A model generated the notes under the pieces. It did no database searches. It saw nothing but the letters and a program-made list of their open reading frames with translations, and was not told the origin of the DNA. The position numbers were made by a program, and so were the translations under genes. From a virus, in the IMG/VR virus record IMGVR_UViG_3300008339_012138, positions 1 through 39,800 of that record: a DNA stretch of 39,800 nt. One strand, given 5' to 3'. Below are positions 1-23,516 of the stretch, in pieces. The stretch's first letter is position 1. Every line of letters starts with the position of its first letter.

Positions 1-2462
1 GCTAAATTTCCCTGATATGTTCCATCCCATGCTTGGTTTAGTTGATTAGATTGAAATATAAGTATTCCTGTTCTAGTATATACAACAAATCTTAATTCAC
101 TAACTAAATCTCCTCTTAATTCAAATACATCATTTAATCCATCTCTATCAGGAGTAAATGCTGTCGGTGCATAAATTAATGATAATGGATTTATTTCAAA
201 GCAATTCACAGTAGTGTCTGCACAAGATTCAATTCCCATAGTGTAAGTTGCTTCAGTAATTAATTCAACACAGTATCTTCCTGGTTGTAGATACCTATGA
301 GTTGGTTCATAATCTGTAGATATTTCTGAATCATCAAAATTCCAATAATAATTATCTCCATCCTCAGATAAATTTATAAATTCAAATACTGGGGATAATA
401 TGTCTATGGGATTAGATTGATTTGAATTAAATGCGGCTGATGGTGTTTTATTTATTAAAATATGGTTAGGTTTAACTAATGAATCAACACATCCTTTATC
501 AGTAATAGCTATTAGCCTTGCTGTAAATTGACCAGGTGAATCATAACATCGTTTAGTCTCTTCTCCAGTTTGAATTATACCAGGTTCTAAATTCCATTCA
601 TAAGTGTATAATGGATTAGGATCAATTACAAAAAAATTAATACAAGCAGGATGGCATTCACTGGTACTACTTTCGTCAAATAAAGCAGATGGTAATGGGT
701 TTACCACTACATTCAAAGTATGAGTTTGTTGGCATCCATTTGCATCAGTTAAAGTAGCAGTATACATTCCATCTGAGGGAGGATATACTATTGAACCATT
801 AACATCTTGATTAATATTATAGGTATTAGTCCAAACTATATTGTAAGGAGCAATTGCACTTTGTTGTGCCACTAACAGCTCTAACGGTTTACCAAAACAT
901 AATACCTCGTTATTATCTCCAGTTAATGTTATATTAAGAGGCTGATTTACATTTAAATCAAACATCTTAACACAACCATTATTATCAGTTACAATTAATT
1001 GATAGTATCCTGCACTCACATTAAATAAATCAGGGTTATTTATTAATGGGGCTGTGTTCCAAGAATAATCATATGGAGGAGTACCACCTAAAATATTAGC
1101 TGATATAGTTCCATCTGAGTATCCAAAGCAAGTTGGTTGAACTGAAACGAAAGTATTTTGAATATCTTGTAGTGGGCCTGTAATAGTTGCAATATTATCT
1201 AATATACATCCATTATCATCAATAATAGTAAGAGCATAATTATCTATAGCTAAATTATTAAATATTCCAGTAAGATTAGATAATGTATTGCAATGATATA
1301 TGTAAGGGGGGGTTCCTCCAATTCCCTCTATTTGAATTTGACCATTATTTGCATTATAACAGTCTACATTTGTAACAGTTAATTGATTATATTCTAATGG
1401 AGGTGGTTCTGTTATATTTACTCCAATGTTAGTAGTACATCCATTATCATCAGTTACTATTACATTATGTGCTCCAGCTGGTAAATTATTAAATATTCCA
1501 GTTAAATTGATTACACCATTTAGGTTGTAGGTATAAGGTAAAGCACCATTAATTGAGTTAATAGTGAAGCTACCATTATTTTCTCCAAAGCATACATTGT
1601 CTTGTTGAGTTGTAATATTATTTACTACAGTTGTATTTTCTCCAACTACAACATTGATAGGATTTCCAACACATCCTTCATCATCCTCTACTGTTACCAC
1701 ATAATTCCCAGCACCAATATTAGTTACTGGTATAGCAGAAGCAATTCCATTGACTGTATAGATGTAAGGTGCAGTACCTCCTACTGTTGTAATTGCAAAA
1801 GATCCATCATTAAATCCGCTACACGAGGCATCAATTATATTATTTGAACTAATAACAGGCAGCACATTACATCCTGTAACTGTACTTCCAGGTGATAATT
1901 CAGCAGGGTAAAGACCATTACATCCATTAGTACCCCAACTACCTGCAAATCCATCACTAACTGGAGATACTTGTATTGATAGTGAGTTACCAACTGTAGG
2001 TCCTACTACTATAGTAAAGCATAAAGTCCAAGGTCCAGTTCCAAAGTCTCCCCAATCATCTGTAGTTTGGCCGTTAGTGTTTAAGTCAAAAAAGAAACCA
2101 GGCCCAAATTGATTTCCACCTCCACCTGAGGAAGCAGGATTACCATTAAATGTTCCTGGTATCCATAACCATTGGCCTCCTGATCCATTTCCTCCATTAT
2201 TTGCTGGGTATGTTGTAGGAGTTAATGTTGTTAAATCCCAACCAGGTCCTAAATTAAGATCAAATCCTTCTAGCCAATTGGTACCTATTCCAGTATTCCA
2301 ATTGTTATAGGTTATACAAAATTGGACTGTTGTTCCAGGAGCGTACCCCCCATTAACAGGGGCAGGATTAACATTGAAATTTTCTGTGCCCATGCAATCG
2401 TTTTGAGCACTTAAAACTAATGAGATTAATATTAACCCTATTAAAAGAAATAACCTTTTCAT
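1..2462 (-). CDS. SprB-like secreted adhesin with T9SS type B sorting domain (C-terminus cut by window edge)
   Basis: Open from ATG at 2462 to the window edge, at least 820 residues. Residues 1-20 are a signal peptide (MKRLFLLIGLILISLVLSAQ, cleavage likely after LSA). Residues 21-200 form a Gly/Asn/Trp-rich beta domain. Residues 204-588 hold about five SprB-type repeats with the pattern Cys-x-G-x-N/D-x-G, then GGTPPYIY, then VTDDNGC. Two PKD-like domains follow. From about residue 755 there is a gliding-motility/T9SS type B C-terminal domain (APTAFTPDRDGLNDVF), whose last part lies outside the window. In Bacteroidetes such proteins are exported by Sec, passed through the T9SS and attached at the surface; SprB itself is the mobile gliding adhesin. 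A phage copy suggests display on the infected cell. A virion role is less likely given the signal peptide. The family call is secure; the role is inference. Confidence 0.9.
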   Translation of the reverse strand, partial: MKRLFLLIGLILISLVLSAQNDCMGTENFNVNPAPVNGGYAPGTTVQFCITYNNWNTGIGTNWLEGFDLNLGPGWDLTTLTPTTYPANNGGNGSGGQWLWIPGTFNGNPASSGGGGNQFGPGFFFDLNTNGQTTDDWGDFGTGPWTLCFTIVVGPTVGNSLSIQVSPVSDGFAGSWGTNGCNGLYPAELSPGSTVTGCNVLPVISSNNIIDASCSGFNDGSFAITTVGGTAPYIYTVNGIASAIPVTNIGAGNYVVTVEDDEGCVGNPINVVVGENTTVVNNITTQQDNVCFGENNGSFTINSINGALPYTYNLNGVINLTGIFNNLPAGAHNVIVTDDNGCTTNIGVNITEPPPLEYNQLTVTNVDCYNANNGQIQIEGIGGTPPYIYHCNTLSNLTGIFNNLAIDNYALTIIDDNGCILDNIATITGPLQDIQNTFVSVQPTCFGYSDGTISANILGGTPPYDYSWNTAPLINNPDLFNVSAGYYQLIVTDNNGCVKMFDLNVNQPLNITLTGDNNEVLCFGKPLELLVAQQSAIAPYNIVWTNTYNINQDVNGSIVYPPSDGMYTATLTDANGCQQTHTLNVVVNPLPSALFDESSTSECHPACINFFVIDPNPLYTYEWNLEPGIIQTGEETKRCYDSPGQFTARLIAITDKGCVDSLVKPNHILINKTPSAAFNSNQSNPIDILSPVFEFINLSEDGDNYYWNFDDSEISTDYEPTHRYLQPGRYCVELITEATYTMGIESCADTTVNCFEINPLSLIYAPTAFTPDRDGLNDVFELRGDLVSELRFVVYTRTGILIFQSNQLNQAWDGTYQGNL
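700..1850 (-). repeat. Tandem SprB-type repeats, about 233 bp per unit, inside the adhesin gene
   Basis: On the plus strand near-identical blocks resembling ACATCCATTATCATC occur at about 732, 971, 1206, 1437 and 1671. The spacing is 239, 235, 231 and 234 bp. Each block encodes the Asp-x-Asn-Gly-Cys end of one SprB-type unit, so the period is about 78 residues. The conservation reflects repeated protein domains. The DNA similarity could also let the array shrink or grow by recombination. Confidence 0.8.
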
Positions 2463-2477
2463 AAGCGGTTTTTATGA

Positions 2478-2485
2478 TAAATATA
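2478..2485 (-). promoter_or_regulatory. Possible -7 element for the adhesin gene
   Basis: TATATTTA on the minus strand lies directly after the mgsA stop and 15 bp before the adhesin ATG at 2462. It matches the -7 element seen at better-supported promoters in this window. No TTG is present at the usual 19-20 bp upstream, so this is only a candidate. Confidence 0.3.
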
Positions 2486-2863
2486 CTATTCTATAACACT
2501 TTTTCGTTTCAAACTTGATATAACTAGTTTTGCTGTATTGTAGTTTGTTGCTAATGGTATATCGTATACGTTACAAATCCTTAGTAACATATTCACGTCT
2601 ACTTGGTGTGGATGAACATCTAAAGGATCTATAAAAAATATAACACCATCAATCTTACCTTCAGTAATTAAAGTAGCTATTTGAGCATCACCTCCTAAAG
2701 GACCTGATTTCATTTTTGTAACTTGTAAACCAGCGTGTTCAACGTGTGTACCTGTAGTTCCAGTTGCAACTATGTCTACTTTTTTAAAGAAATCTAGGCG
2801 CTTCATAACGAAAGCAACCATGTCTGCCTTTTTACCATCGTGGGCAATAAGTGCTATTGTCAT
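2486..2863 (-). CDS. mgsA: Methylglyoxal synthase
   Basis: A 125-residue protein that should convert dihydroxyacetone phosphate to methylglyoxal and phosphate in the cytoplasm. The family's active-site landmarks are present: His8-Asp9 with Lys11/12 near the N-terminus, ATGTTGT at 33-39 for phosphate binding, SGPLGGD with the catalytic-type Asp59, and FFIDPLD...PH..DV with Asp80, His86 and Asp89. Length is close to that of bacterial MgsA, which carries a slightly longer N-terminus. I start at ATG 2863 because homology begins there. A longer in-frame start at 2908 would lie inside a hairpin and upstream of the promoter. It has its own promoter (2879-2908) and is followed by the adhesin gene. 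This enzyme is unusual in a phage; its benefit is unknown. Confidence 0.92.
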   Translation of the reverse strand: MTIALIAHDGKKADMVAFVMKRLDFFKKVDIVATGTTGTHVEHAGLQVTKMKSGPLGGDAQIATLITEGKIDGVIFFIDPLDVHPHQVDVNMLLRICNVYDIPLATNYNTAKLVISSLKRKSVIE

Positions 2864-2878
2864 AACTTTTATTTGGGG

Positions 2879-2908
2879 TAAATATAAAAAAAAAGCTTGC
2901 ATTTGCAA
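2879..2908 (-). promoter_or_regulatory. Bacteroidetes-type promoter for mgsA, overlapping a hairpin
   Basis: On the minus strand TTG (2906-2908) is followed after 19 bp by TATATTTA (2879-2886), then 15 bp to the ATG at 2863. This fits the Bacteroidetes sigma consensus TTTG / TAnnTTTG. The spacer is mostly a hairpin plus a T run. Confidence 0.7.
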
Positions 2909-2912
2909 GCTT
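2893..2912 (-). terminator. Rho-independent terminator after the 2940-3503 gene
   Basis: On the minus strand an 8 bp stem AAGCTTGC / GCAAGCTT with an AAAT loop runs into nine T residues, 28 bp after the stop codon at 2940. It is a classic intrinsic terminator. It overlaps the spacer of the mgsA promoter. Confidence 0.85.
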
Positions 2913-2939
2913 AATTTAAAATATATTTATAGAACTTAT

Positions 2940-3503
2940 TTAACTTCGTATTAAATTTAATTTTATTTGTTCATCACACCAAGATGAAAATTCTTCTAAT
3001 GTTTTTTGAATAAATTCTTGGAATTCTGATATATTGTCAGCGGTATAATATTTTTCTCTGCTATATGAGGTCTCACCAGGGCCAAGAACTGTAATATAAT
3101 ATTTAGGTGTTTTAGATTCAGATCCATCTGGGAGTAGAGTTGATTTAAAAAATCTTATTATTCTTTTTTCCATTTTTTTATTTTCTAAAGATAAAACACA
3201 CATAGGATCATCTGGGGGTGATAATTTTATATATGGGCGAAGTTTTTTAACATTTTCTTTTTCAGAAAAATCTTTAACAAGTTTACATTCTTCATCACTT
3301 AAAGGGGAAAGTTTTTCTCCATTAGCTAAAACAGCAGAGTTAGGTTCTTTTACACTATACATGTTTTGTTGGTTTATTTCTTTAACACCTTCATTTAACT
3401 GTGACTTAGTAATGATGCCCGCAAGTTTTTGCATTCTTCTGAATTCTTCAGATATAATTTGTTTTTTCATTTTGTTAAGTATTTTGTTATAAATATCATT
3501 CAT
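2940..3503 (-). CDS. Unknown protein with a capsid-targeting-like leader
   Basis: 187 residues, no known enzymatic family recognised. The N-terminus carries EFRRMQKLAGIITKSQLNE (residues 20-38) and ends in Leu-Asn-Glu followed by Gly. T4 prohead protease cuts after Leu/Ile-x-Glu, and T4 internal proteins carry short basic/hydrophobic leaders that end in this way. The protein may therefore be packaged into the prohead and trimmed. This is inference. The rest is mixed and charged (GLU/LYS-rich, PDDPMCVLSLENKK region) with no membrane segment. ATG at 3470 (MKKQIISEEF) is an equally good start and would put the motif close to the N-terminus. The 3503 start overlaps the upstream gene by 8 bp. A terminator follows. 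Confidence 0.7.
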   Translation of the reverse strand: MNDIYNKILNKMKKQIISEEFRRMQKLAGIITKSQLNEGVKEINQQNMYSVKEPNSAVLANGEKLSPLSDEECKLVKDFSEKENVKKLRPYIKLSPPDDPMCVLSLENKKMEKRIIRFFKSTLLPDGSESKTPKYYITVLGPGETSYSREKYYTADNISEFQEFIQKTLEEFSSWCDEQIKLNLIRS

Positions 3504-3696
3504 CTTCTAATCCATCCATCAAAGTAACATCCCAATCTTCATCATCAGTACGTTCAAATGCACCATCAGGTCCAATTTGAAAATCATCTGAAACATATAT
3601 ATCCCATAGCTTTTTATCCATCCATTCATCATAAGTTAATGTTGATGTTGGATTTTCTTTGAGGTAGTTTTGGTATTGGGTTTCGAGGGTTGCCAT
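3496..3696 (-). CDS. Small acidic protein of unknown function
   Basis: 66 residues, strongly acidic in the C-terminal half (DDEDWDVTLMDGLEDE). An N-terminal segment LTYDEWMDKKLWDIYV contains a Tyr-Asp-Glu-Trp core. No family recognised. The start is preceded by the recurrent AGTTATG context and lies 2 bp after the thymidylate synthase stop. Its 3' end overlaps the next gene by 8 bp, so it is probably in the thyA operon. Confidence 0.65.
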   Translation of the reverse strand: MATLETQYQNYLKENPTSTLTYDEWMDKKLWDIYVSDDFQIGPDGAFERTDDEDWDVTLMDGLEDE

Positions 3697-3698
3697 AA

Positions 3699-4901
3699 CT
3701 AATTTGATAAAGGTGCTTTAATTGTTGGATGCGATTGATAGTTTTCTAAAATAACATCATTAACTGAGGAACAGAATATACCATCTCTAACGTGTACTGT
3801 TGGTAGTGGATATGGTTCTCTTGTTCGTTTTGGAACATCTTGTTGGTCTAACTCAAAATCTTTCCAATCAGTTTTACAATCTCGTTTATTTCCACCACAA
3901 CGATTAATAAAATGCCATTCATTTCGTTCTTCAGTAGTCATCTCTCTACCAATCTGTTCTTTGGCTTGTTCAATGTGGTTTGAATATAAGTGTACATCAC
4001 CTAAGTTTCCAATTAATTCATCAGGTACCATATTTACTTCATCTGCAATCATTGTAAGTAATAATCCATAACTAGCAATGTTGAATGGTAAACCTAAGAA
4101 TGTATCTACTGAACGTTGATTCCACATTAAAGAGATTGCTCTGGTTGGGATTTTATATGGAGTGTTATCTATATTTGTTGGTACCATCATATCCGCTAAA
4201 GGTCCATATTTTTCTTTCCAAATAGGTAAAGCTAATTTATGACGCTCTTCTAAACTCAACTCTCTTGTATAAACTTGAAATCCATAATGACAAGGTGGAA
4301 GAACCATTTGGTCTAATTCTCCAACATTCCAAGCATTAACCATTAATCGTCTTGAGTCTGGGTTTGTTTTGAGGTCGTTGATTAGGTTTGCGATTTGGTC
4401 TATATACAATTCATCTTTATTAAAATCTTTTAACGAGCACCAACCTTCGTTATTTTTCCAAACATCATCTTCAACAATAAATGAATCGCTCTTTTTCCAA
4501 CTTCTCCATTGCTTACCATAAATTGGACCTAATTCACCCCACTTCTCTTCCCATTCTTTATCGTTTTTAATATGTTCAATAAAATCCTCTTTACTCTTTG
4601 GCCATCTAACTTCATCACTATTTACATATCGCTTATAAGCATCTCCATCCCAAATATGACAATCATTATCAACAAGGTATTTGATGTTGGTATCACCTTT
4701 TAAAAACCATAGTAATTCAACTACCATAGTTTTCCAAGCCATTTTCTTGGTTGTAAGTAGTGGAAATCCATCAGACATTTTATGACGGATTTGTCTACCA
4801 AACACACTTAGTGTACCTGTGCCTGTTCTGTCGGATTTTTCAACTCCATTGTCAAGTATGTCTTGTAAGAGTGCTTGATACCTATAATCAATTGTATTCA
4901 T
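3699..4901 (-). CDS. thyA: Thymidylate synthase, enlarged form
   Basis: Converts dUMP to dTMP with methylene-tetrahydrofolate as methyl donor, supplying thymidine for this AT-rich genome. Visible motifs are RTGTGTLSVFG (25-35), CHIWDGDAY (81-89), the dUMP-binding Arg pair SRRL (183-186), the catalytic Cys204 in LPPCHYGFQ, NQRSVDTFLGLPFN and GDVHLYSNH. At 400 residues it is far longer than E. coli ThyA (264). Extra blocks sit before the Arg pair (about residues 95-170), just after the catalytic Cys region (ELSLEERHKLALP onward) and in the C-terminal third (NRCGGNKRDCKTDW). All core residues are present, so an active enzyme is expected. It follows the 4903-5151 gene by 1 bp. Confidence 0.96.
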   Translation of the reverse strand: MNTIDYRYQALLQDILDNGVEKSDRTGTGTLSVFGRQIRHKMSDGFPLLTTKKMAWKTMVVELLWFLKGDTNIKYLVDNDCHIWDGDAYKRYVNSDEVRWPKSKEDFIEHIKNDKEWEEKWGELGPIYGKQWRSWKKSDSFIVEDDVWKNNEGWCSLKDFNKDELYIDQIANLINDLKTNPDSRRLMVNAWNVGELDQMVLPPCHYGFQVYTRELSLEERHKLALPIWKEKYGPLADMMVPTNIDNTPYKIPTRAISLMWNQRSVDTFLGLPFNIASYGLLLTMIADEVNMVPDELIGNLGDVHLYSNHIEQAKEQIGREMTTEERNEWHFINRCGGNKRDCKTDWKDFELDQQDVPKRTREPYPLPTVHVRDGIFCSSVNDVILENYQSHPTIKAPLSN

Positions 4902-4902
4902 A

Positions 4903-5151
4903 TTAATCTTCTAAATTTAAACCATAACCATTAAGTATGTCTCGGATCTCTTCTCTAATCTTATCCGCAACATCCATTTCCTCACCACTAGCTTCTTTGC
5001 TTCGATTAGTGATACTGACACCATGTTTAACAGTACTGCGTAGAATCTGATCTAGATCCCACATAGCCATTTTCCACTTCATAGCATCTAATGCTACTCT
5101 TGCATCTTGTGATTCTTCAACTGAATCGAACTCTATTATAATTTTTCCCAT
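4903..5151 (-). CDS. Small phage protein of unknown function
   Basis: 82 residues. It starts with a beta strand (KIIIEFDS) followed by a long predicted helix with Met and Trp (AMKWKMAMWDLDQILR) and a charged helical tail. This resembles short conserved proteins I associate with T4-like phages, but no function is known to me. It is tightly packed between the 5153 gene and thyA. Confidence 0.65.
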   Translation of the reverse strand: MGKIIIEFDSVEESQDARVALDAMKWKMAMWDLDQILRSTVKHGVSITNRSKEASGEEMDVADKIREEIRDILNGYGLNLED

Positions 5152-5152
5152 G

Positions 5153-5350
5153 TTAATAGTCTTGATATATTTTTATTCCAAAGTCCCAAAATAGAAAGTT
5201 TATATACACTCCCCACCAATCACCATGTACATCGCTAGTGATAAAATGATACTTATTTCGCTCAACACGTAGTGTAGGTATGATAGTACAGTCCCAACAC
5301 CAATTATCGTTGATAATTTTATTGAATAAAAAACCTATTTTATATTTCAT
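5153..5350 (-). CDS. Small aromatic-rich protein of unknown function
   Basis: 65 residues, rich in Trp, Tyr and Phe (NWCWDC, HGDWWGVYINFLFWDFG). The hydrophobic part is broken by charged residues, so it looks like a compact beta fold more than a membrane protein. No family recognised. Its ATG lies only 4 bp downstream of a TATCTTTA promoter element, which would give a nearly leaderless transcript. Confidence 0.6.
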   Translation of the reverse strand: MKYKIGFLFNKIINDNWCWDCTIIPTLRVERNKYHFITSDVHGDWWGVYINFLFWDFGIKIYQDY

Positions 5351-5354
5351 GATG

Positions 5355-5386
5355 TAAAGATACGAAAAAAATCCTATTTAAACCAG
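5355..5386 (-). promoter_or_regulatory. Promoter immediately before the 5153-5350 gene
   Basis: Minus strand TTTCGTATCTTTA with the -7 element TATCTTTA at 5355-5362. A degenerate -33 element CTGG begins at 5386, about 21 bp upstream, inside the end of the preceding gene. The ATG at 5350 is only 4 bp from the -7 element. Confidence 0.5.
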
Positions 5387-5778
5387 CTAAAATTAGCCAT
5401 TTTGTTTCTTAATGGATAATACCACTCGTACCTAAAAAAGTTACCCCATTTAAAATGTTCATCAACATCTTCAATAAACCTAAGTAAATAAGTACCCAAT
5501 TCTGCTAATTCATCCTCAGTTGGGTTTTTAACATAAGGATGATCTGTAAATTTACTATGGTTTTGGTGATAATATTTTTTAACATCATCTAAAGTTTTAA
5601 ATAACCCATTTTCCATTAATTCACCATAAGTAATATAGTATGATGGAAAATCACATATTTCAAATGTTTGGACATATTTTAGCTTTTTAGTGGGAAATTT
5701 AAACTCGCAAACTGTTTCTTCTTCTAAAGAAGACCAAAATGTATACCAGGTACTATAACTCCAACGTGAATAGCTCAT
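5374..5778 (-). CDS. Unknown phage protein with MSYSRWS start
   Basis: 134 residues. The N-terminus is Ser/Trp/Tyr-rich (MSYSRWSYSTWYTFW), a start style I associate with phage proteins of unknown function. The rest is soluble, with ICDFPSYYITYGEL and an aromatic C-terminus. No catalytic motif seen. It overlaps the upstream gene by 26 bp, which suggests translational coupling. The start is favoured by the distinctive N-terminus. Confidence 0.65.
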   Translation of the reverse strand: MSYSRWSYSTWYTFWSSLEEETVCEFKFPTKKLKYVQTFEICDFPSYYITYGELMENGLFKTLDDVKKYYHQNHSKFTDHPYVKNPTEDELAELGTYLLRFIEDVDEHFKWGNFFRYEWYYPLRNKMANFSWFK

Positions 5779-6040
5779 AAACTGAATTTGTGGTTTTAAA
5801 CTTTGTATAGTTTTCTTTTTGCTCTAAAATTTCAGTAATTATAGTTGTTAACCAAGTGTAGCTCATGTAGTGAGGATCTATAATTAATGATCTCTCTACT
5901 TTAGGTTCATCGTGGGCTGAATTGAAGGTTCCGTTTTCATTCCAGTCAATCCACCTAATCTTTTCACCTTCTAAGGTTAAATTATCACGCTCACGAACTA
6001 ACTTATACTTTTTAGGATTGGATTGTTCTTCTGCTATCAT
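5753..6040 (-). CDS. Unknown small protein
   Basis: 95 residues, soluble and charged, with HYMSYTWLTTIITEILEQ as the best-defined helical stretch. No family recognised. The start has the AGTTATG context, 3 bp after the stop of the 6044-6358 gene. Its end runs 26 bp into the following gene. Confidence 0.6.
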   Translation of the reverse strand: MIAEEQSNPKKYKLVRERDNLTLEGEKIRWIDWNENGTFNSAHDEPKVERSLIIDPHYMSYTWLTTIITEILEQKENYTKFKTTNSVYELFTLEL

Positions 6041-6043
6041 AAC

Positions 6044-6358
6044 TTATTGTTGTTTCCAAATAACTTCATCTTTGTTTTTAGTCCAATAGATTCTAAAATC
6101 AGCATCGTATCTGTCTTTGGTAAAATAAACCTTTGTTCCTCTAGAATACCATGGGGGAGCTAAATAAATAAAACCTGGTTTGGTGATTTCATACTCATAT
6201 TCAACTGAATAGGCAATTATATCTGCTTCTGCTTTGTTGTTGGTTTCATATACTTTGTATAAAGCCTGATATTGATTTCGCACCGGCTTCCATATTTGCC
6301 CATTGACATTTAAATATAAAAATAATAAAACCGCTATACAAAGTAGTATTTTATTCAT
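6044..6358 (-). CDS. Small secreted protein, DUF6150-like
   Basis: 104 residues. The N-terminus MNKILLCIAVLLFLYLNVNG is a signal peptide, so the mature protein should act outside the cytoplasmic membrane. The remainder has repeated short units of the type ADIIAYSVEYEYE and YDADFRIYWTKNKDE. This resembles the small DUF6150 family of Bacteroidetes and phages; the role is unknown. I use ATG 6358 because it begins the signal peptide and overlaps the upstream stop by 8 bp, like other junctions here. A longer start at 6391 would add MDLLILDLLMR. Confidence 0.65.
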   Translation of the reverse strand: MNKILLCIAVLLFLYLNVNGQIWKPVRNQYQALYKVYETNNKAEADIIAYSVEYEYEITKPGFIYLAPPWYSRGTKVYFTKDRYDADFRIYWTKNKDEVIWKQQ

Positions 6359-6536
6359 CCTCATTAACAGGTCTAAAATTAGTAAATCCACCTAATTCTT
6401 TAATGTATTTTTTCTTTAATTTAGTATTAAACACTTCTGCTGAAGGGTTATTGAATTTTTGTTTCCTGGGTGTTTTAAGTGTTCTACGATACACCTCTAG
6501 GCATTCTAGTTTTTGTAAATTTGTTGTTTTGCTCAT
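6351..6536 (-). CDS. Small basic protein of unknown function
   Basis: 61 residues, Lys/Arg-rich in the middle (RRTLKTPRKQKFNN, KLKKKYIKELGG), acidic at the very end. It might bind nucleic acid, but nothing diagnostic is visible. The start shows the AGTTATG context and lies 2 bp after the previous stop. Confidence 0.55.
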   Translation of the reverse strand: MSKTTNLQKLECLEVYRRTLKTPRKQKFNNPSAEVFNTKLKKKYIKELGGFTNFRPVNEDE

Positions 6537-6538
6537 AA

Positions 6539-6835
6539 CTATTTTTTTAAGATTTCAATTGCTTCTGTTATTTCAGTACATTTTTCGTACATTTCTTTTT
6601 CTACAAAATATTTTAAGTTAGTTTCTAATGTTTCAGCAAAGTATTTCCTATCCAAAGTCAAATCATACACTGATTCATCTTCTACAAAATTAACAGATAG
6701 GATATGAACATTATTTTTTTTAGTGGTTAGGTTCTCCAAAATAGCATTAACTATTGCTTCTGCTATTTTAAAATCCTTTTTATCAAGCATTTCTTGAAAT
6801 TCATCACTATTATTTAGGGTTAATTCTAAGGCCAT
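6539..6835 (-). CDS. Unknown phage protein, mostly helical
   Basis: 98 residues. The order is an N-terminal strand and helix (LNNSDEFQEMLDKKDFKIAE), a central strand (NNVHILSVNF) and a C-terminal helix with YEKCTEITEAIEILKK. It resembles short proteins I associate with T4-like phages, of unknown role. I choose ATG 6835; a TTG two codons upstream (6841) is possible but overlaps the preceding stop and is a weaker codon. Confidence 0.6.
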   Translation of the reverse strand: MALELTLNNSDEFQEMLDKKDFKIAEAIVNAILENLTTKKNNVHILSVNFVEDESVYDLTLDRKYFAETLETNLKYFVEKEMYEKCTEITEAIEILKK

Positions 6836-6837
6836 GA

Positions 6838-6996
6838 TCAAAATAAATTTAGATAATCTTTATTAATTGTTTTATTTTTTAGCTTCTGATTTTTTTCATC
6901 TTTTTTCAATATATCATTAGCTAATTTTTCTAAATGTTTTTCCTTAGCTCTTTGAAAATCAGTTACTACTTCTGTATGTTTTTTATTCTTTTTCAT
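6838..6996 (-). CDS. Short Lys-rich coiled protein, 52 residues
   Basis: An ORF of 52 codons, MKKNKKHTEVVTDFQRAKEK at the start, then an almost continuous Lys/Glu/Leu helix and LNLF at the end. The ATG overlaps the preceding stop in an ATGA junction. Its TGA is at 6838-6840, just upstream of the next start. Both junctions fit an operon gene. Function unknown; a small nucleic-acid or protein-binding helix is possible. Confidence 0.65.
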   Translation of the reverse strand: MKKNKKHTEVVTDFQRAKEKHLEKLANDILKKDEKNQKLKNKTINKDYLNLF

Positions 6997-7640
6997 TTGG
7001 TATAGCTTACTAGATCATACGGGTCATCATCTACTTTTGGATCTTCATATAGTCCAATTTCTTTCAACCTAGATAAGTGATAATCATCTAACTGGAAATC
7101 AATTGCCTCTGTAGTTTTAGATACTGATTTAGTTTCCTCTAGTTGTTGCATATCTCTATCTGTAAACACATTCCCAACAGTTAAAAAGTAACAGTTATAA
7201 CACAACAGTTGTAAGTTAGGTAATACCCAGTTTCGTTTATCCCCATTTTTAAAATGCATTAGTAGAGGCATCTTGTAATCTAATACTCTTCTTTCACCAA
7301 ACCCACACATACTGCACTTTTCCTCCATTAACCCTCGCTCTAGTATTTTATCTTTCAATTTTTGAGGGTCAAACGATGAAGCATCAATTCTTCCAGCCAC
7401 TATATCTTCAATAGCGTCTTCTTTTTGTGTTTTACCTAAAAACTTGGGGATACCTTTACCTTGTCGATTTTTATGTAGTTCAAATAAGGTTTTACCTGAT
7501 TCTTCATCCACATAGAATTTCATCCATTTTTTTAAGTGAATATAAGAGCATCCCAAGTATCTAGCAGCAGCCCGCACCGATTTGGTTTGGGCCATTGCTG
7601 CTTGAACTTCTCCTTTACTTAAATCTAATCTTTTAGGCAT
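6993..7640 (-). CDS. HTH plus HNH-like zinc protein
   Basis: 215 residues from ATG 7640. The N-terminus holds a helix-turn-helix of the kind found in homing endonucleases and terminase small subunits (VRAAARYLGCSYIHLKKWMK). The middle has a zinc-binding HNH-like core: CSMCG, then MHFKNGDKRNW, then LQLLCYNCYF. In active HNH enzymes the second Cys pair is usually followed by His; here Tyr-Phe follows, so catalysis is uncertain. It could be a nuclease or a DNA-binding protein. The 7640 start overlaps the upstream stop by 8 bp; a start at 7676 would add MIKIGNFQTTRK. Confidence 0.7.
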   Translation of the reverse strand: MPKRLDLSKGEVQAAMAQTKSVRAAARYLGCSYIHLKKWMKFYVDEESGKTLFELHKNRQGKGIPKFLGKTQKEDAIEDIVAGRIDASSFDPQKLKDKILERGLMEEKCSMCGFGERRVLDYKMPLLMHFKNGDKRNWVLPNLQLLCYNCYFLTVGNVFTDRDMQQLEETKSVSKTTEAIDFQLDDYHLSRLKEIGLYEDPKVDDDPYDLVSYTK

Positions 7641-8007
7641 TTTCCTCGTCGTCTGAAAGTTCCCAATCTTGATCATCTAAATCATCAACTAGGTCTTCTT
7701 CTCGCTCATAAATATCCTCTTCATCTTCCGAAGATTCAACCACTTCAGGGGTTTCAATGGATTCTTCAGGTTCTTCTTCAAATGGGTCATTAATGCCAAA
7801 AGCACCCATTAGCTGGTTATATTGTTCAATTTGTTCAGGCTCCAAAATTACAATATCGTTGTAAGTGTGGTCTCCTTCACCAATTTGTACAGTAACCGCT
7901 CCTTTTCTACCTGTTTCCGAATGGGCCATACAGGTAGTAGTATTGGGTAATGCTTTTAAACGACCTTCAGGGATCTCGGCCCCGCAATGACAGAACTTTT
8001 TGCTCAT
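7633..8007 (-). CDS. Zinc-finger protein with long acidic tail, DksA/TraR-like N-terminus
   Basis: 124 residues. The N-terminus FCHCGAEIPEGRLKALPNTT...C resembles the C4 zinc finger of the DksA/TraR family (CxxCGxxIPxxRLxAxP), but with Cys-x-Cys spacing and only one later Cys. The C-terminal 50 residues are almost all Asp, Glu and Ser. DksA-like proteins act on RNA polymerase; whether this one does is unknown, since the coiled-coil of DksA is missing. It overlaps the HTH-HNH gene by 8 bp, which suggests the two work together. Confidence 0.65.
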   Translation of the reverse strand: MSKKFCHCGAEIPEGRLKALPNTTTCMAHSETGRKGAVTVQIGEGDHTYNDIVILEPEQIEQYNQLMGAFGINDPFEEEPEESIETPEVVESSEDEEDIYEREEDLVDDLDDQDWELSDDEENA

Positions 8008-8008
8008 A

Positions 8009-8419
8009 TTATATAGGTTTATCGATTTTTACTACAAAGTCCCAAAGTTCTTTGGGAGTGGTTAAATAAAGATCCTCAACTGCTCCGGTCTCGTGATTCT
8101 CTAGTGTTAAAGGTAATACTGTAATTTTTCCTTCTTCATCTAAAATTTCTCTATCAAAAATATACCACATAATAATTTCTGAAACTACTGGACCATATTT
8201 TAATAAAAATAAATCCTCAATAACTTCTATAAAGTTAGTATTATAATCAAAAATATCTATGTGGTAGTGTGTGTATAGGTCAATAGACTTATTGATATTA
8301 TCATTTAGGGAAGTTAAAATTTGTATAAAAACTTCTTCTTCCTTTTTAAATCGACTTTCTTTAGCCTCACTAAATTCTAATTTGGAACCAAAGTTTTTAT
8401 TTAAAAGTATTTCAATCAT
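8009..8419 (-). CDS. Unknown phage protein
   Basis: 136 residues, acidic and soluble, with an aromatic centre (THYHIDIFDYNTNFIEVIEDLF) and a C-terminal segment TTPKELWDFVVKIDKP. It resembles short proteins I associate with T4-like phages. No active-site motif seen. The start overlaps the previous gene by 8 bp, and it ends 1 bp before the zinc-finger gene. Confidence 0.65.
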   Translation of the reverse strand: MIEILLNKNFGSKLEFSEAKESRFKKEEEVFIQILTSLNDNINKSIDLYTHYHIDIFDYNTNFIEVIEDLFLLKYGPVVSEIIMWYIFDREILDEEGKITVLPLTLENHETGAVEDLYLTTPKELWDFVVKIDKPI

Positions 8420-8591
8420 GGGAATCTTTATTTAGTTTACCCACTCCGTATAAACTCATAAATTTATCCATAGATAATTGTTTTTTAAAAGCAAAATATT
8501 TGATTGCTTCAAAAATATCTTCCATTTCAATTTTATCTATAGGCTCATGTGTAGAGTCGACTCTTGAGTAAAAATAGTATGTTTGTTTCAT
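8412..8591 (-). CDS. Short unknown protein, 59 residues, first gene after a promoter
   Basis: An ORF of 59 codons beginning MKQTYYFYSRVDSTHEPIDK, then a helical middle (EDIFEAIKYFAF) and YGVGKLNKD near the end. It sits directly behind a well-formed promoter (8602-8632), has the AAAAGTTATG start context and overlaps the next gene by 8 bp. These features make it a convincing real gene. Function unknown. Confidence 0.75.
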   Translation of the reverse strand: MKQTYYFYSRVDSTHEPIDKIEMEDIFEAIKYFAFKKQLSMDKFMSLYGVGKLNKDSHD

Positions 8592-8601
8592 AACTTTTCC
8601 G

Positions 8602-8632
8602 TAAATATACGAACTAATTTTTAAGAACCCAA
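8602..8632 (-). promoter_or_regulatory. Promoter of the 8.6-2.9 kb operon
   Basis: Minus strand TTG (8630-8632, in CTTGGG) then 20 bp then TATATTTA (8602-8609), with the ATG at 8591 10 bp further on. The -33 element lies in the last codons of the holin-like gene. This probably starts the run of small genes leading to thyA. Confidence 0.75.
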
Positions 8633-8869
8633 GTTATCATTTGGGGAGGTTGCTTCTTTTCTTGAGAATTTTTCAAGTGTGGTAGCACCTAATCCTACCC
8701 AAATAATAGATTGTATTACATCTAATAAGCCTTGGGCAATAGTAATGTTAAAAGCCAAATCTAGTAAAAATGCTATTACTATAAGAGCAAATGCCCCAAC
8801 TGTAATAAATCTTTTAGAGCTAACTTGGTTGTCTACATCTGAAAGTAGGTGTTGGAAAAAGGTTTTCAT
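8621..8869 (-). CDS. Small two-helix membrane protein, possible holin
   Basis: 82 residues with two hydrophobic segments (FITVGAFALIVIAFLLDLAF and ITIAQGLLDVIQSIIWVGLG) and polar ends. Size and topology fit a class II holin, which would let the endolysin reach the peptidoglycan. The endolysin gene (36394-36930) is far away, so this assignment rests on topology only. It could be another membrane protein. Confidence 0.55.
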   Translation of the reverse strand: MKTFFQHLLSDVDNQVSSKRFITVGAFALIVIAFLLDLAFNITIAQGLLDVIQSIIWVGLGATTLEKFSRKEATSPNDNLGS

Positions 8870-8890
8870 AATATGCTTTTAATATACATA

Positions 8891-9760
8891 TTAGAATATT
8901 TCATATTCTATTTCTGTATCCCCAAACCCCCATGATTCACTATTTTCTGTTTTTTGTTGATATATTATAGCTCTATATTGATCATTAGTTTTTTTATTAA
9001 TTCCATCTAAAAATCCTCCTCCTCCACGACCATGTTCTATATGAAATAAAGCAGGGTGATATATTGCTTTTAAATCAAAACCATGCATTACTGCTTTTTT
9101 CTGTACATTAGTATCAGCATAAAGAGAATATATTAATTCTTCTTCCATTCCTCTAATTTCATCCCATACATGTTTAGGAGCAATTTGGAAGTCCCCACAA
9201 CAATTAATTATACTATAATTATCTCCACTAACTGTAGTTTCCTCAAAATGTCTTTCTTCAGAATTACTAATTAAATGTTCTCTTAATTCTTTCCAATTCT
9301 CAAATATAATTTCCCCACTATGGAAATTTTTAATCTGTTCCCAATCTGTATGTCTGCGACTAATAGTATAAAATGTATTTTGATTTGTAGAATTCAATAA
9401 TTTTTCTAATTCATCCCGTTTAGGATGTATTATATCTATATTAGTTGAAATTATCCAATCCCCAGTAGCTCTTCTTAATCCAATATTACGAGCTAATACT
9501 TCACAACACTTTTGAGCATATGGGTCATTATTAGTAAGATAAGAAGCAATTTCAGGTGTAATTACAATATGTTTAAAATTACCTTTAAATTGAATATTAT
9601 CTTTAATATCATAAAGTAAACTATGAGTAGGTGAGTTCCAATCTACATATATTACTTCATCATAGGTATCAATTGCTGAATTAAAACAATAAGTTGCTCT
9701 TTCATTTAAATGTCCACCGTATCCATCATTTCTAGATACTATAACTGCTGATATTTTCAT
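8891..9760 (-). CDS. GT-A fold glycosyltransferase
   Basis: 289 residues. It opens like a GT2 enzyme (MKISAVIVSRNDGYGG) and carries ARNIGLRRATGDWIISTNID at about 92-110. This is the typical nucleotide-sugar site leading to a DxD-like NID motif. His-rich C-terminal part (LFHIEHGRGGGG) could bind metal or acceptor. It should transfer a sugar from a nucleotide donor; donor and acceptor are unknown. Last gene of the glycan cluster, just upstream of the holin-like gene. Confidence 0.8.
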   Translation of the reverse strand: MKISAVIVSRNDGYGGHLNERATYCFNSAIDTYDEVIYVDWNSPTHSLLYDIKDNIQFKGNFKHIVITPEIASYLTNNDPYAQKCCEVLARNIGLRRATGDWIISTNIDIIHPKRDELEKLLNSTNQNTFYTISRRHTDWEQIKNFHSGEIIFENWKELREHLISNSEERHFEETTVSGDNYSIINCCGDFQIAPKHVWDEIRGMEEELIYSLYADTNVQKKAVMHGFDLKAIYHPALFHIEHGRGGGGFLDGINKKTNDQYRAIIYQQKTENSESWGFGDTEIEYEIF

Positions 9761-9768
9761 ATTTTTTA

Positions 9769-10701
9769 TTAAAATTGTTTTCTATATACATTCCAAAATT
9801 CTTTTGCTTTTTCAGGTAAGTAATTTTCAAAATTTTCTAAATCACCTAATAATTTATAAGTATTTCTATACCCAATTACTTCATTTTCTAAATTCGTAAC
9901 TAAATCTTGGACATTACGATCCTGATAAACAGTTGCTTGATTATAAATTACTGAATTAGGGAAATAATATTGTAAAATATAACTACCCCAAATATCATCC
10001 ATTCTACCAGTATGAGGTAAAACTGTATAATACGGAATTACTTCCCTAGCTAAAAATGTATTTTGTGAATTAAAAGGTGCTAATTGATTTGAACAAAATG
10101 GTTCAAATTTATTGAATTTAACTATAGGTTTTTTACTCAAACGACATATAGCATCGATATCAGGATCTCCATCCCAAAAATCAGCTTGAACTAATACTTT
10201 ACGTTTAATTTTACCTTTATATTCAATATTATTTTTAAAAGGTAAATCTTCGATTGGATAGCCTCTATGCCATAAATCATTATGATTAGTAGGTGATATT
10301 GGATCAAAATATAATGATGAAATATTTTCATATAAGTTAATTTCAATTTCTTGACCTACATAAACATTATCTCCCCAATTATCATATGGGATATTATCAT
10401 CATCTACTGTAGCAATTACATCAGCACCACCATTATAAGCAAACACGAATCCTATATTCCGACGCTGTATTGATTTCCAACCAATAGTATCGGATAATTC
10501 TTTTAAAAGAAGTTCCTGAGATTCAGGTGAAAGGTAAACAATATTTTTAAATTGTTTTTCTAATTGTCTATATTCATCATGGGGTGTTTTTGTATCACCA
10601 ACAATAATAAATGTCCAATTTTTTTCATCTGCTATTTTACAAAATTTTAAAGTAGCTATTGTAGGTTTGTTAATTGTTGTTGTAACTATAAATTTTTTCA
10701 T
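9769..10701 (-). CDS. STELLO/DUF288-like glycosyltransferase
   Basis: 310 residues from ATG 10701. The start KKFIVTTTINKPT and the following FIIVGDTKTPHDEY match the DUF288/STELLO pattern. A DDDN motif follows (ATVDDDNIP), the likely metal-nucleotide site. GRMDDIWGSYILQ near the C-terminus looks like the acceptor-side DD element. It should act in the cytoplasm on phage or host glycans. I prefer ATG 10701, with a 4 bp overlap of the upstream gene, to a start at 10740, which would overlap more. Confidence 0.82.
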   Translation of the reverse strand: MKKFIVTTTINKPTIATLKFCKIADEKNWTFIIVGDTKTPHDEYRQLEKQFKNIVYLSPESQELLLKELSDTIGWKSIQRRNIGFVFAYNGGADVIATVDDDNIPYDNWGDNVYVGQEIEINLYENISSLYFDPISPTNHNDLWHRGYPIEDLPFKNNIEYKGKIKRKVLVQADFWDGDPDIDAICRLSKKPIVKFNKFEPFCSNQLAPFNSQNTFLAREVIPYYTVLPHTGRMDDIWGSYILQYYFPNSVIYNQATVYQDRNVQDLVTNLENEVIGYRNTYKLLGDLENFENYLPEKAKEFWNVYRKQF

Positions 10702-11492
10702 ATTTCTAATATTTGTTGTTCTGGGAATTGAAAGTGGCATATTCCATCTATCATTAGATTTTTATGTGATGGGTCTCCGATTTTATATGTTGTAACTATT
10801 TCACATAGTTGATCATGTTTATTTTTATCTAGTAAATAATGTTTTATTAAATTATTTCTTTTTGTGCATTTTTTTAAGAATTCTTCACAACTCCATCCAT
10901 TAATATATTCCCAAACTTTACCATTATAATTGGAAATATTTTTTATTTGTTCAAAGGTAGTATTAATATATTCTTTATTATTTAAATAATCACACTTAGA
11001 TACATTTATGAAATAAAAATTAGTTTGAGGATAAAAATGATCATTTAGTACCTTATCATAATTAAAATTAAATAAACATAAATCTTCATATGAAATACCA
11101 TTTGTATAATAAAAATCAGCTTCTTCTATATGTTTATTTAAAATAGATTCTTGAAAAAGAACATCATTTGCAGATTTACATAACCATTCTTCCCTGTTTT
11201 CTTTACACCAATCAAATATTAAATTATCTAAATCTGCTGTTCCAAAATTATGCCCCCTATTTATTTTAGAATCTATTATAATACATTTATTAAAATATTG
11301 TTTCCATAATTGTGTATTTTTTTCTACTAAACTTAAATCAGAATAATTTGTAGCAATAATTATTTGTTTAAATTCTTTTAGGACTGGGAGATTATATAGA
11401 ATATATTGTTCTAATATATTTAAATCATTTTGAGATGAAATATAACCTACAGTTCCATAAATTGACTTATTAATAAGTTGTTTTAAATTCAT
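10698..11492 (-). CDS. Putative glycosyltransferase, GT2-like
   Basis: 264 residues. GTVGYISSQNDLNILEQYI and DSKINRGHNFGTADLDNLIF resemble the N-terminal half of GT2 enzymes, where NxGxxxG marks the nucleotide-binding part, followed by EWLCKSANDVLF (a degenerate DxD, only one Asp). The C-terminal half is not recognised. Overlaps the upstream methyltransferase gene by 23 bp and the downstream gene by 4 bp. Confident as a gene, moderate as a transferase. Confidence 0.65.
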   Translation of the reverse strand: MNLKQLINKSIYGTVGYISSQNDLNILEQYILYNLPVLKEFKQIIIATNYSDLSLVEKNTQLWKQYFNKCIIIDSKINRGHNFGTADLDNLIFDWCKENREEWLCKSANDVLFQESILNKHIEEADFYYTNGISYEDLCLFNFNYDKVLNDHFYPQTNFYFINVSKCDYLNNKEYINTTFEQIKNISNYNGKVWEYINGWSCEEFLKKCTKRNNLIKHYLLDKNKHDQLCEIVTTYKIGDPSHKNLMIDGICHFQFPEQQILEI

Positions 11493-12123
11493 CCCAAGTA
11501 AGTAAATTTAAGTAGGTTTTTCTATTAGTATCAAATGTTTGATAATCCATATCTATTAATGGTGTTGTATTAAAATATTTTTCATTATTTTTTATAAATC
11601 CAACTCCAAAATCTGTATCAATAACACAACATTCAAAATTAGTATTATTTTCTTTGAATTCAACAAACGCCTTCCATACATCTCCATTCCATGCTATTGT
11701 TTCTCTTTCAGGAATTTGGGCTTCGTAACTAACAGGATTACAATCATGCATTATAATAAACCCATTTGGTTGGAGATGATTTAGAGAATTTTCAATATCT
11801 TTTTTTACCTGAGAGTATTCATGTAATCCGTCTATGAAAATTATATCATATTTGATTTCATCATGTCCTTTTATAAGGTTAAAAAAATCATCTGATGTCA
11901 TAGAATAAGTAACCTCAGGAACAACATATCCTTCTGCTCCAGGATCTATTCCATCTTTATGTAAAGCTTTTATTTTACGTATATTTTCTCCCTGAAATAC
12001 TCCTATTTCAAGATAATTAATTAATTTATATTTTTCAATAAGATAATTTATTATATCATAGCGTTTTATATCACTATTTAAATTACGAATAACTTCAGGT
12101 TCTTGTAAATTATTTTTATACAT
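11470..12123 (-). CDS. Class I SAM-dependent methyltransferase
   Basis: 217 residues. Motif I is YLEIGVFQGENI (about 37-48), with the Glu-x-Gly of SAM binding; IIFIDGLHEYSQVKKDI follows, typical of the Methyltransf_24 group, and FIIMHDC is motif III. Enzymes of this group methylate sugars or similar small groups, and the location in a glycan cluster supports a glycan substrate. Overlaps neighbours at both ends (8 bp with the 12116 gene). Confidence 0.85.
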   Translation of the reverse strand: MYKNNLQEPEVIRNLNSDIKRYDIINYLIEKYKLINYLEIGVFQGENIRKIKALHKDGIDPGAEGYVVPEVTYSMTSDDFFNLIKGHDEIKYDIIFIDGLHEYSQVKKDIENSLNHLQPNGFIIMHDCNPVSYEAQIPERETIAWNGDVWKAFVEFKENNTNFECCVIDTDFGVGFIKNNEKYFNTTPLIDMDYQTFDTNRKTYLNLLTWDEFKTTY

Positions 12124-12979
12124 AGTTTAAAACATATTGTGCTAGCTGCTTTGTGGTTAAATTATTTTTAGTATAATTAAATAACTCGTCTAATATACTA
12201 AAATATTTTTGCTCTTCAAAGCTATTTGCTAATTCTTTTGCTTCTAATAATAATTCTTTAGGTAAGTTAGTTAATATTCTATCAGGACATTCTTCTAAAT
12301 CAGTAAAATATGGAACACAATTATTAGCTAATATTTCATAATGCCTCATACAATCCCATCCTGCTTTTTTCATAGTCACACCAAAATAAGATCTATTATA
12401 GTCATTATAATAATCTTGTTCTATATTAAATTTATATCCCCCTTGACCAGGTATTATAGAACCATATTCCTGGGTTTTGTTTAGTTTATTTGAGGTGATT
12501 TTATATTCAGGAATAGCAAAATGAATAGGAATAAAAATATTAGAAATTAATTCTCTTTTAAAATAAGGATGTTTAGAACTCAATGAATGAACATCAGTAA
12601 AATCATCTCCATCTATTAAAAATATTTTATTTGGTGGATATATTTTTGATACTAAATCATAATAATCTAGACATCGTTTTACAGTACCATATATTATTAA
12701 ATCAAAATATTTATCTTTAATTTTATCTTCAATATTTGTTCTATCAATATTATCTTTATCTATTAAAAAAGTTGAAGTAAAACCCTTACCCCATAAATAT
12801 TGATTAGAAATTTTTGATTGATTTTCTTTATAGAGATGAATAATAGGAGTACTATCTATAACCTCAATGTTTTCTAATTCAGTTAATCCATAAAATAAAA
12901 GATCATTTAAATAATCATTTAAATAACCCCCACTTTGTTGAAATATCTGATTATGATTAGTTATATAAAGTATTTTCAT
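12116..12979 (-). CDS. Putative GT-B-like glycosyltransferase
   Basis: 287 residues from ATG 12979. The N-terminus MKILYITNHNQIFQQSGGYL is a Rossmann strand and loop. The C-terminal part YFGVTMKKAGWDCMRHYEIL then NNCVPYFTDLEECPD looks like the C-terminal nucleotide-sugar region of GT-B or exostosin-type enzymes, where an Arg/His-Glu pair contacts the donor. Family not named with confidence. The start overlaps the upstream stop as ATGA; a start at 12997 would add six residues. Confidence 0.65.
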   Translation of the reverse strand: MKILYITNHNQIFQQSGGYLNDYLNDLLFYGLTELENIEVIDSTPIIHLYKENQSKISNQYLWGKGFTSTFLIDKDNIDRTNIEDKIKDKYFDLIIYGTVKRCLDYYDLVSKIYPPNKIFLIDGDDFTDVHSLSSKHPYFKRELISNIFIPIHFAIPEYKITSNKLNKTQEYGSIIPGQGGYKFNIEQDYYNDYNRSYFGVTMKKAGWDCMRHYEILANNCVPYFTDLEECPDRILTNLPKELLLEAKELANSFEEQKYFSILDELFNYTKNNLTTKQLAQYVLNYV

Positions 12980-13788
12980 GTATTTACTAATATCCATGTA
13001 GGATGATAAAAAATATCTAATTCTCTATCAGAACTATCAAAATGATTGGGAAATAAAACAACACTATTTTCTTTTTGACCTAGATAAGCACCCCACCAAC
13101 TAAATGTACTACCTGACATTATAAAATGATCACATAAAGACATTAAATATAAAGTTTCAGCCTCATTTAAATTTTCTGCAAAATATATATTTTCTCCTTC
13201 AGGAAACCAATCTTTACAATATTCAAAATTATCTGATACTATAATAAAATTAAAATCATCTTGAGGTAGATAGCTAAAACATTTTTGAATATATTCTGGG
13301 GAAAGTTTATGCATCCAAGGTTGAGCAAGTGTATCTCCTAATCTAACATGAATGCAAATAGTTGGTTTATCTGAGTAAGATTTAAATATTAGATCTATTT
13401 TTTGTTTAATATTATCTTTAAATGATAACTCTTGTTTTAATTGTTTTTTAATATCATCAAAATATTTCCATGATTGAAAATAACCTTTTAAAGATACATC
13501 GTTCAAATCAAATACCTTAGAATAAAATCCTTGTTTTGGTTCTTCCCAAATTTGAGTAGGAATTATATCTGAGGGTTTTATAGATAAGTTAAAATAATCT
13601 TCTAAAACATACTTATAAGGTATCCATTTTTGATGGTATTGGTCTAAACATCCATCTTGTTTCCAATCATAATTTTTAGAAGGAATAACTATTTCTTTTC
13701 CTTGGGTTTTTAATTTATAAAGTAAAGCATAAATAAATAACTGGTTTCCTAGTCTTCCATTATAACCTATATCAATATGTGATATCAT
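12976..13788 (-). CDS. GT11 family alpha-1,2-fucosyltransferase-like
   Basis: 270 residues with all GT11 landmarks: GRLGNQLFIYA at 11-21, HVRLGD at 147-152 (the H-x-R-x-G-D donor site) and SGSTFSWWGA at 225-234. Family members transfer L-fucose from GDP-L-fucose to galactose. GDP-L-galactose differs only by a 6-hydroxyl, and a GDP-mannose 3,5-epimerase sits in this cluster, so L-galactose could be the real donor sugar (inference). Overlaps the next gene by 4 bp and the previous one by 4 bp. No GDP-fucose synthesis genes are visible in the window. Confidence 0.9.
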   Translation of the reverse strand: MISHIDIGYNGRLGNQLFIYALLYKLKTQGKEIVIPSKNYDWKQDGCLDQYHQKWIPYKYVLEDYFNLSIKPSDIIPTQIWEEPKQGFYSKVFDLNDVSLKGYFQSWKYFDDIKKQLKQELSFKDNIKQKIDLIFKSYSDKPTICIHVRLGDTLAQPWMHKLSPEYIQKCFSYLPQDDFNFIIVSDNFEYCKDWFPEGENIYFAENLNEAETLYLMSLCDHFIMSGSTFSWWGAYLGQKENSVVLFPNHFDSSDRELDIFYHPTWILVNT

Positions 13789-15331: not shown

Positions 15332-15333
15332 AA

Positions 15334-16508: not shown

Positions 16509-16510
16509 TA

Positions 16511-20432: not shown

Positions 20433-20434
20433 AA

Positions 20435-20662
20435 TTAAGTAGTAGTAGTTATATTAATATTAGGGTTAGTACCTGATGATGTAGATTCCCAACTTTTATA
20501 AGGAGGGGTCCATTGTGTAGATGGGGTTTCAGTGTCTTTAACTGAATGGGCTTTGGTTTGAATTTTTTCCCAACATTTTTCAAATTCACTAGGTGTTAAA
20601 GTTAAATCTTGTGTTGCATCTAAAAATCCTTCTAACCAAATTACAAATTCTTTTGATGTCAT
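20435..20662 (-). CDS. Small unknown phage protein
   Basis: 75 residues. The N-terminus KEFVIWLEGFLDATQDLTLT is a helix style I associate with short phage proteins. The tail is Ser/Thr/Pro-rich and probably disordered, ending in four Thr. Overlaps the GT4 gene by 4 bp. Confidence 0.6.
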   Translation of the reverse strand: MTSKEFVIWLEGFLDATQDLTLTPSEFEKCWEKIQTKAHSVKDTETPSTQWTPPYKSWESTSSGTNPNINITTTT

Positions 20663-21978: not shown

Positions 21979-21979
21979 A

Positions 21980-23467: not shown

Positions 23468-23516
23468 AGTAACTTTTATTTTTATAAAACAATATAATAA
23501 AAACTCTTTAAATAAC

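Follow-up and report, generated by a model that had tools for sequence, protein, structure and literature searches.

Type B cargo proteins of the bacterial type IX secretion system (T9SS) are anchored on the cell surface by PorP/SprF-like shuttles (PMC9143113, PMC12618676), and their genes are often linked to a shuttle gene. The type B sorting domain suffices for secretion and targeting and needs a specific shuttle, one of which was described to be common to three cargoes (PMC12618676). For SprB of Flavobacterium johnsoniae, a protein of 669 kDa, binding to SprF has been found (PMC9143113). Phages may use SprB and RemA as receptors (PMC13288928, with a similar suggestion in PMC7345892), and gliding genes affect phage adsorption (PMC13288928, PMC7345892). 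T9SS cargo encoded by phages has already been published: Cryophage carries type A sorting domains on an endoglucanase, a GH39 and a PA14 protein, for which use of the host system was presumed and inter-strain competition or superinfection was mentioned (PMC7468147), and in crAss-like gut phages open reading frames (ORFs) with BACON repeats, one of which itself bears a sorting domain, lie beside T9SS sorting-domain proteins near head genes (PMC6949934). Here we describe adhesin-like genes associated with type B sorting domains on a virus contig of 39.8 kb (IMG/VR record IMGVR_UViG_3300008339_012138, positions 1 to 39,800, hereafter the window). They comprise P0001, which encodes a single-chain, adhesin-like protein, and a three-gene cassette A, B and C. 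The favoured explanation, to which we assign a probability of about 0.62, is that the products are phage-made type B cargo, displayed on the infected cell through the T9SS of the host.

P0001 resembles SprB in its repeats, signal peptide and type B sorting domain but differs in size (about 850 amino acids (aa) versus 669 kDa), is phage-borne, has an A-type N-terminal domain, and no SprF-like gene was found on the 128-kb contig that overlaps the window. The first-pass annotation of this DNA, made from the letters alone, had described a lone SprB-type adhesin gene; the gene is real and the repeats are of the SprB type, identity with SprB itself was not supported, and the picture proved incomplete. 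P0001 is one piece of a larger set: the same phage has a second, overlooked type B gene, and split cassettes are present in it as in many other phages. Cryophage and the crAss-like phages share with the window phage-encoded sorting-domain proteins, but their domains are of type A in the former and accompany BACON repeats in the latter, and a split into A, B and C is absent from the covered parts of both accounts. Among cellular proteins, the end (5793-5887) of the grappling-hook protein GhpA of Aureispira (5898 aa, PDB 9flp) matched the sorting-domain part of the C-family profile (2.6e-14), with no match reported to the remainder of the profile. The first-pass annotation had known of no described role for such a phage gene; papers on T9SS cargo of phages in general exist (PMC7468147, PMC6949934), and a type B, SprB-repeat or split form in phages was not met in the open-access literature searched, the matches of which were covered in part.

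The domain architecture of P0001 proposed earlier was confirmed. Pfam detected the SprB repeat in four stretches (4.3e-26), and the spacing of the DxxGC motif (260, 338, 415, 493 and 573, in steps of 78, 77, 78 and 80 residues) gave five repeats; a PKD_4 match (1.6e-15) and a type B sorting domain (CHU_C, residues 765-818, profile positions 3-57 of 86, 1.3e-8) follow. The signal peptide, read by eye, ends LSA/QN, which matches the Q-rule of Bacteroidetes (PMC5837995). Between signal peptide and repeats lies the A-type domain (~residues 20-200), which was 34-47% identical in alignment to 29 A proteins from split cassettes of other phages and was modelled by AlphaFold2 as beta-rich with a mean pLDDT (predicted local distance difference test) of 79.

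A second IMG/VR record, IMGVR_UViG_3300008266_000033 (128,411 bp), was 100% identical to positions 229..12462 and 19890..39800 of the window in the same register, the two segments that the comparison covered. Since the 128-kb contig encodes a terminase, portal, major head protein, tail sheath and tail tube (PHROGs), the source virus is a contractile-tailed phage. The P0001 gene sits within this contig and is flanked by genes on both sides; therefore, a contig end chimeric with host DNA, a concern of the first-pass annotation, is ruled out. Extension to the left also supplied the end of the sorting domain: joined from both contigs it scored 56.7 bits with NCBIfam TIGR04131 (cut-off 35), compared with 33.1 bits for P0001 as cut by the window contig, which stops inside the domain. 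The 128-kb contig's own copy lacks ~133 bases within the sorting-domain region, the frame is shifted and only 745 aa are encoded; past the deletion, the contig carries positions 1..96 of the window and the remainder of the domain. The window contig stops ~95 bases past the site of the deletion, which is what a branch of the assembly graph at this site would produce, and both forms may therefore coexist in the sample. In IMG/VR, the pattern of the deletion allele was found on the 128-kb contig only and that of the intact allele on none, the window's own record possibly having been excluded.

The cassette adds a second, complete type B domain to the same phage (Table 1). Within the cassette it is found on C only (CHU_C, 70.3 bits; TIGR04131, 51.9 bits against the cut-off of 35). 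Signal peptides were read by eye in all four window proteins, P0001, A, B and C, and glutamine follows each likely cleavage site. B and C overlap by one base, and the M15 peptidase gene next to C is probably co-transcribed with it. The A protein of the window had no match in Pfam, NCBIfam or PHROG. A small signal-peptide protein elsewhere in the window (DUF6150; 6044..6391, minus strand) has glutamine after its likely cleavage site, too.

Table 1. P0001, the cassette and the adjoining peptidase gene in the window (immunoglobulin is abbreviated Ig; a slash marks the likely signal peptide cleavage site)
Feature	Position	Strand	Description
P0001, single-chain adhesin	3..2462	minus	820 aa, 3' end open at contig end
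A-type domain of P0001 incl. signal peptide	1863..2462	minus	alignment and AlphaFold2
Type B sorting domain (CHU_C) of P0001	3..170	minus	Pfam; truncated by contig end
Cassette gene A, 454 aa	38117..39481	minus	signal peptide (..LSA/QG), adhesin-like domains, tail ..PSVILYSDQN
Cassette gene B, 189 aa	37502..38071	minus	signal peptide (..GFS/QV), two Ig/PKD-like domains, tail ..PPPTLNSDN
Cassette gene C, 191 aa	36927..37502	minus	signal peptide (..LFS/QN), Ig/PKD-like domain, complete type B sorting domain
M15 peptidase, endolysin-like	36394..36930	minus	Pfam; 4-base overlap with C

The first-pass annotation had proposed to look for the same architecture in phages and hosts, and sorting-domain genes and split cassettes were found to recur. 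In IMG/VR, a scan with a sorting-domain profile returned 277 stretches, of which 253 were confirmed and the best 80 loci fetched; a B profile gave 150 viral relatives, of which the best 80 were kept (weakest 3e-57). Both scans were seeded by short peptide patterns and the E-values relate to candidate stretches only, so that divergent relatives may be missed; moreover, the cassette counts are not frequencies in phages at large, because the loci were picked by profile and only the best-ranked were taken. The 78 viral loci found by the B profile only held 59 distinct complete stand-alone B proteins. A sorting-domain protein was encoded directly downstream in 56 of them, the three misses being contig ends, with a one-base B/C overlap in 37 of these 56; a tailed protein was encoded directly upstream in 56/59, and all 59 B proteins ended in H[ND]. 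Pooling of all 158 loci, some sharing contigs, gave 75 distinct B proteins, 72 with C, 66 with A and 68 ending in H[ND], although a downstream C is partly built in here since 80 of these loci were chosen by the sorting domain itself. The pooled loci contained 1952 distinct ORFs with a minimum length of 100 aa; 141 of them ended in H[ND] and 138 in [ILV]xH[ND], and a crude pattern of signal peptide plus glutamine fitted 129 of the latter 138. Glutamine followed the signal peptide in 26/26 B, 20/20 C and at least 90% of 30 A-type sequences. The A domain was present in 65 distinct viral proteins, and those A, B and C proteins that were tested had no counterpart among the PHROGs families. In length, 92 sorting-domain ORFs, from the 80 fetched loci and a few other phage loci, formed a C-like cluster at ~183-191 aa and another at 737-839 aa; some adhesins are longer still, and most of the 92 carry larger passenger domains. 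Records G413 and G425 each have a long frame (~737-839 aa) with a sorting domain in addition to a C-like one, and a second recurrent single-chain family of phage T9SS proteins (~737-839 aa) starts with QYCPxxGPDQ (L039, L042, L094, L107 and others).

The members of the cassette diverge to different degrees. In 269 cassette pairs with B at least 70% identical, A fell below 30% in 34 and C in none. Of the 20 such A pairs with B above 85%, 17 involve contig L252, the A protein of which is of double length and contains parts of the same domain, so that global identity understates the match. A hypervariable A gene was, therefore, not generally supported, but the A position is occasionally swapped as a whole. 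C is otherwise the most divergent member (median identity 69-74% where B has 87-93%), which, speculatively, would fit an adjustment to different shuttles.

To ask how phage-biased the cassette is, cellular genomes were searched. The B profile found 134 relatives in 84,980 cellular genomes (best 7e-29, next 8e-16). A sample of 395 Bacteroidota genomes consisted of 394 sampled genomes and G002, chosen since it was known to carry the cassette; with at most eight candidates scored per genome, 18 genomes matched at an E-value of 1e-15 or better with 26 matches, 25 of which lay in frames of 663-4209 aa and one in a short frame of 221 aa, that of G002. A stand-alone B was found in none of the 394 sampled genomes. 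The A domain was present in one of the 395 genomes (a 419-aa frame) and in none of 79 cellular loci. Split, tailed genes did occur in four of these 79 loci (L110, L137, L141 and L168); the neighbours of the one in L110 look chromosomal by eye, one being guaA-like. Hence, the cassette is enriched in phages in these samples without being exclusive to them.

How A and B, which have no sorting domain, might be held by C is suggested by their C-terminal ends. Both share a tail, usually ..IxHN. In split cassettes, A ends ..TPVVVGPISHN and B, after its signal peptide, starts QLTTTNPDTVCYQTNGSIYQVP; the single chain of L105 (522 aa), which holds A, B-like and sorting domains together, reads ..NNVVTPPISFSNDTLCVSTSDDYFVIP at the matching joint, L091 reads ..PPIVTIGPIVYSDTICYNSSSETYSVP and P0001 reads ..NVLPVISSNNIIDASCSG. 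The B-C joint is alike in L105 and L091. By this correspondence, which was read by eye, the tails of A and B look like the inter-domain linkers of their single-chain relatives. Where Ig domains stand in tandem, linkers of this kind run into the first strand of the domain that follows, and docking of the tails into the next protein would be a natural consequence. AlphaFold2 modelled B from L083, as distinct from the window's own B, with a pLDDT of 92.9 and placed residues 176-186 outside any strand, and short B forms of 113 aa without a whole domain still keep the tail. Donor-strand fibres (type 1 and type V pili), in which the tail strand of one subunit completes the fold of the next, may be a parallel. 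Fold searches gave generic tandem-Ig matches for B and weak matches to pilins and the CLIPPER adhesin domain for A (best E 1.5e-3, query-normalised TM-score at most ~0.4). The tail was also considered as a widespread bacterial C-terminal signal, which found no support because a degenerate DNA pattern had three matches in five genomes and its reversed control eight. We tentatively propose, at somewhat less than even odds, a split T9SS adhesin with A as tip, B as adaptor and C as anchor, which would be exported separately and reassembled through the tails of A and B as first strand of the next Ig domain, A and B crossing the outer membrane as passengers of C.

No PorP_SprF match was found in nine phage records, some of them fragments, including the 128-kb contig, while all four controls, bacterial metagenome-assembled genomes, were positive; bacterial type B cargo, in contrast, is often linked to a shuttle gene. 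Since type B domains need specific shuttles, the phage must use a shuttle of the host, and the host range in which the cargo can function would therefore be limited. Signal peptides (by eye), Q-rule residues, sorting domains, conservation of the cassette, tails matching linkers and the lack of a recognised shuttle gene are features of the sequence itself, on which secretion, docking and surface display would build as follows. The Sec system of the host would export P0001, A, B and C, and cleavage would leave each of them with an N-terminal glutamine. A SprF/PorP-like shuttle of the host would carry the sorting domains of P0001 and C through the host T9SS and anchor them on the cell surface, and A and B would most likely ride on C, their tails docking where the covalent linker runs in single-chain relatives. 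The outcome would be an adhesin-like, phage-made layer on the infected cell. Most likely, it would block receptors on the host surface by occupying or masking them and would compete for shuttles with the adhesins of the host; adsorption of other phages, or of the phage's own progeny to debris, would thereby fail.

Shielding of the infected cell by receptor masking and shuttle competition is the role we prefer, albeit with less than even confidence and by analogy. Llp, a lipoprotein made late by phage T5, blocks the very receptor that this phage uses on the cell; the likeness is one of role only, Llp being no T9SS cargo. Lysis-type genes adjoin the cassette or cargo genes of the window and L049, and tail genes adjoin those of L090 and L081, a genomic context that suggests late expression; P0001 itself has a methylglyoxal synthase gene adjacent and thymidylate synthase genes near, not lysis or tail genes. 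In L081, a sorting-domain gene directly follows the tail sheath and tube genes (PHROGs), and L068, L070 and L087 appear alike by likeness. The same display could instead serve adhesion, with infected cells sticking together or attaching to particles or new hosts, which would raise local transmission. Ig/PKD and SprB-type repeats are adhesin modules, the replacement of A as a whole resembles that of a ligand-binding tip, and pilins and CLIPPER were among the fold matches of A; but these matches are weak, and late expression next to lysis-type genes would leave little time for a gain, so that we consider adhesion unlikely. Lower still we rank a decoy, in which SprF-like shuttles or the translocon would be saturated with short cargo of type B and the host would no longer display its gliding adhesins or receptors, the passenger being minor. 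Shuttles are specific, one serves three cargoes (PMC12618676) and none was found in the nine phage records, all of which would suit a decoy, as would the near-bare proteins of signal peptide plus type B domain in LR756502.1 (116 aa; L026, 7508..7858) and LR745206.1 (126 aa; L029, 6837..7217), which are possible T9SS decoys. Because most of the 92 cargoes carry larger passengers, the bare decoy was demoted from main explanation to rival, and A, B and the tails would be superfluous for jamming.

Two further explanations were weighed. As virion components they would decorate the particle like Hoc-like Ig/PKD proteins, the likeness to sorting domains being incidental; among the long chains tested, the PHROG family of Hoc-like head decoration proteins indeed matched P0001 (2.5e-4) and L094 (6.9e-7), though not L105, and the gene order in L081 would agree. 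Signal peptides, however, would remove the proteins from the cytoplasm, where virions are assembled, and complete sorting domains and the Q-rule have been retained, which makes a virion part improbable. A host gene in a chimeric or misbinned contig might be suspected, as sorting domains and SprB repeats are normally a property of Bacteroidota cells; given that two contigs agree, that the gene lies inside the 128-kb contig with phage structural genes and that the A domain was found in 1/395 cellular genomes versus 65 distinct viral proteins, we regard this as extremely improbable.

Several points weigh against display of phage-made cargo and the role proposed for it. The sorting domain is lost in one of the two assembled P0001 alleles, and the role rests on analogy. 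The window tails, SDQN of A and SDN of B, differ from the common HN form, and the crossing of the outer membrane by A and B is a conjecture because both are without a sorting domain. To this come the split, tailed genes of the four cellular loci. Of 20 larger virus records with a cassette, only 8 had a recognised terminase, and no record with a named host in the phage collection searched had A, B or C; the closest records there were LR756502.1 with three and LR745206.1 with four sorting domains, both unannotated assemblies of uncultured huge phages, and one 4.2-kb contig.

If display through the host T9SS holds true, many phages would re-coat the infected Bacteroidota cell by the T9SS/gliding-adhesin route that is also suspected for phage adsorption. 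Superinfection, gliding and host range would then be linked, since only hosts with a fitting SprF-like shuttle would qualify, and it could be tested if a passenger complex without covalent bonds can pass through the T9SS. If the split adhesin is real as well, the T9SS can export such a complex on a single sorting domain, and re-coating of infected cells in this manner would have become standard among phages, B and C being kept and A swapped as a module. Being small and conserved, the cassette can be tested in F. johnsoniae.

Other genes of the window, all on the minus strand where a strand was noted, include the methylglyoxal synthase gene next to P0001 (2486..2908, minus; NCBIfam equivalog, 168.9 bits), to our knowledge an unusual metabolic gene for a phage, and a GroEL/GroES pair (26899..28853, minus). 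A sugar-related cluster (8891..23467, minus) encodes a GT11 glycosyltransferase, UDP-glucose dehydrogenase, epimerase and FkbM methyltransferase, assigned partly by eye, with an NAD synthase gene within it (16511..17254); it may modify DNA, the virion or the host surface. A FolE-like gene (157.9 bits, slightly under the curated cut-off of 162) occurs with QueE-, QueD- and QueC-like genes recognised by eye (window 34143..34868 and 39474..39800; L021 1..2857), which perhaps form a pathway of 7-deazaguanine DNA modification.
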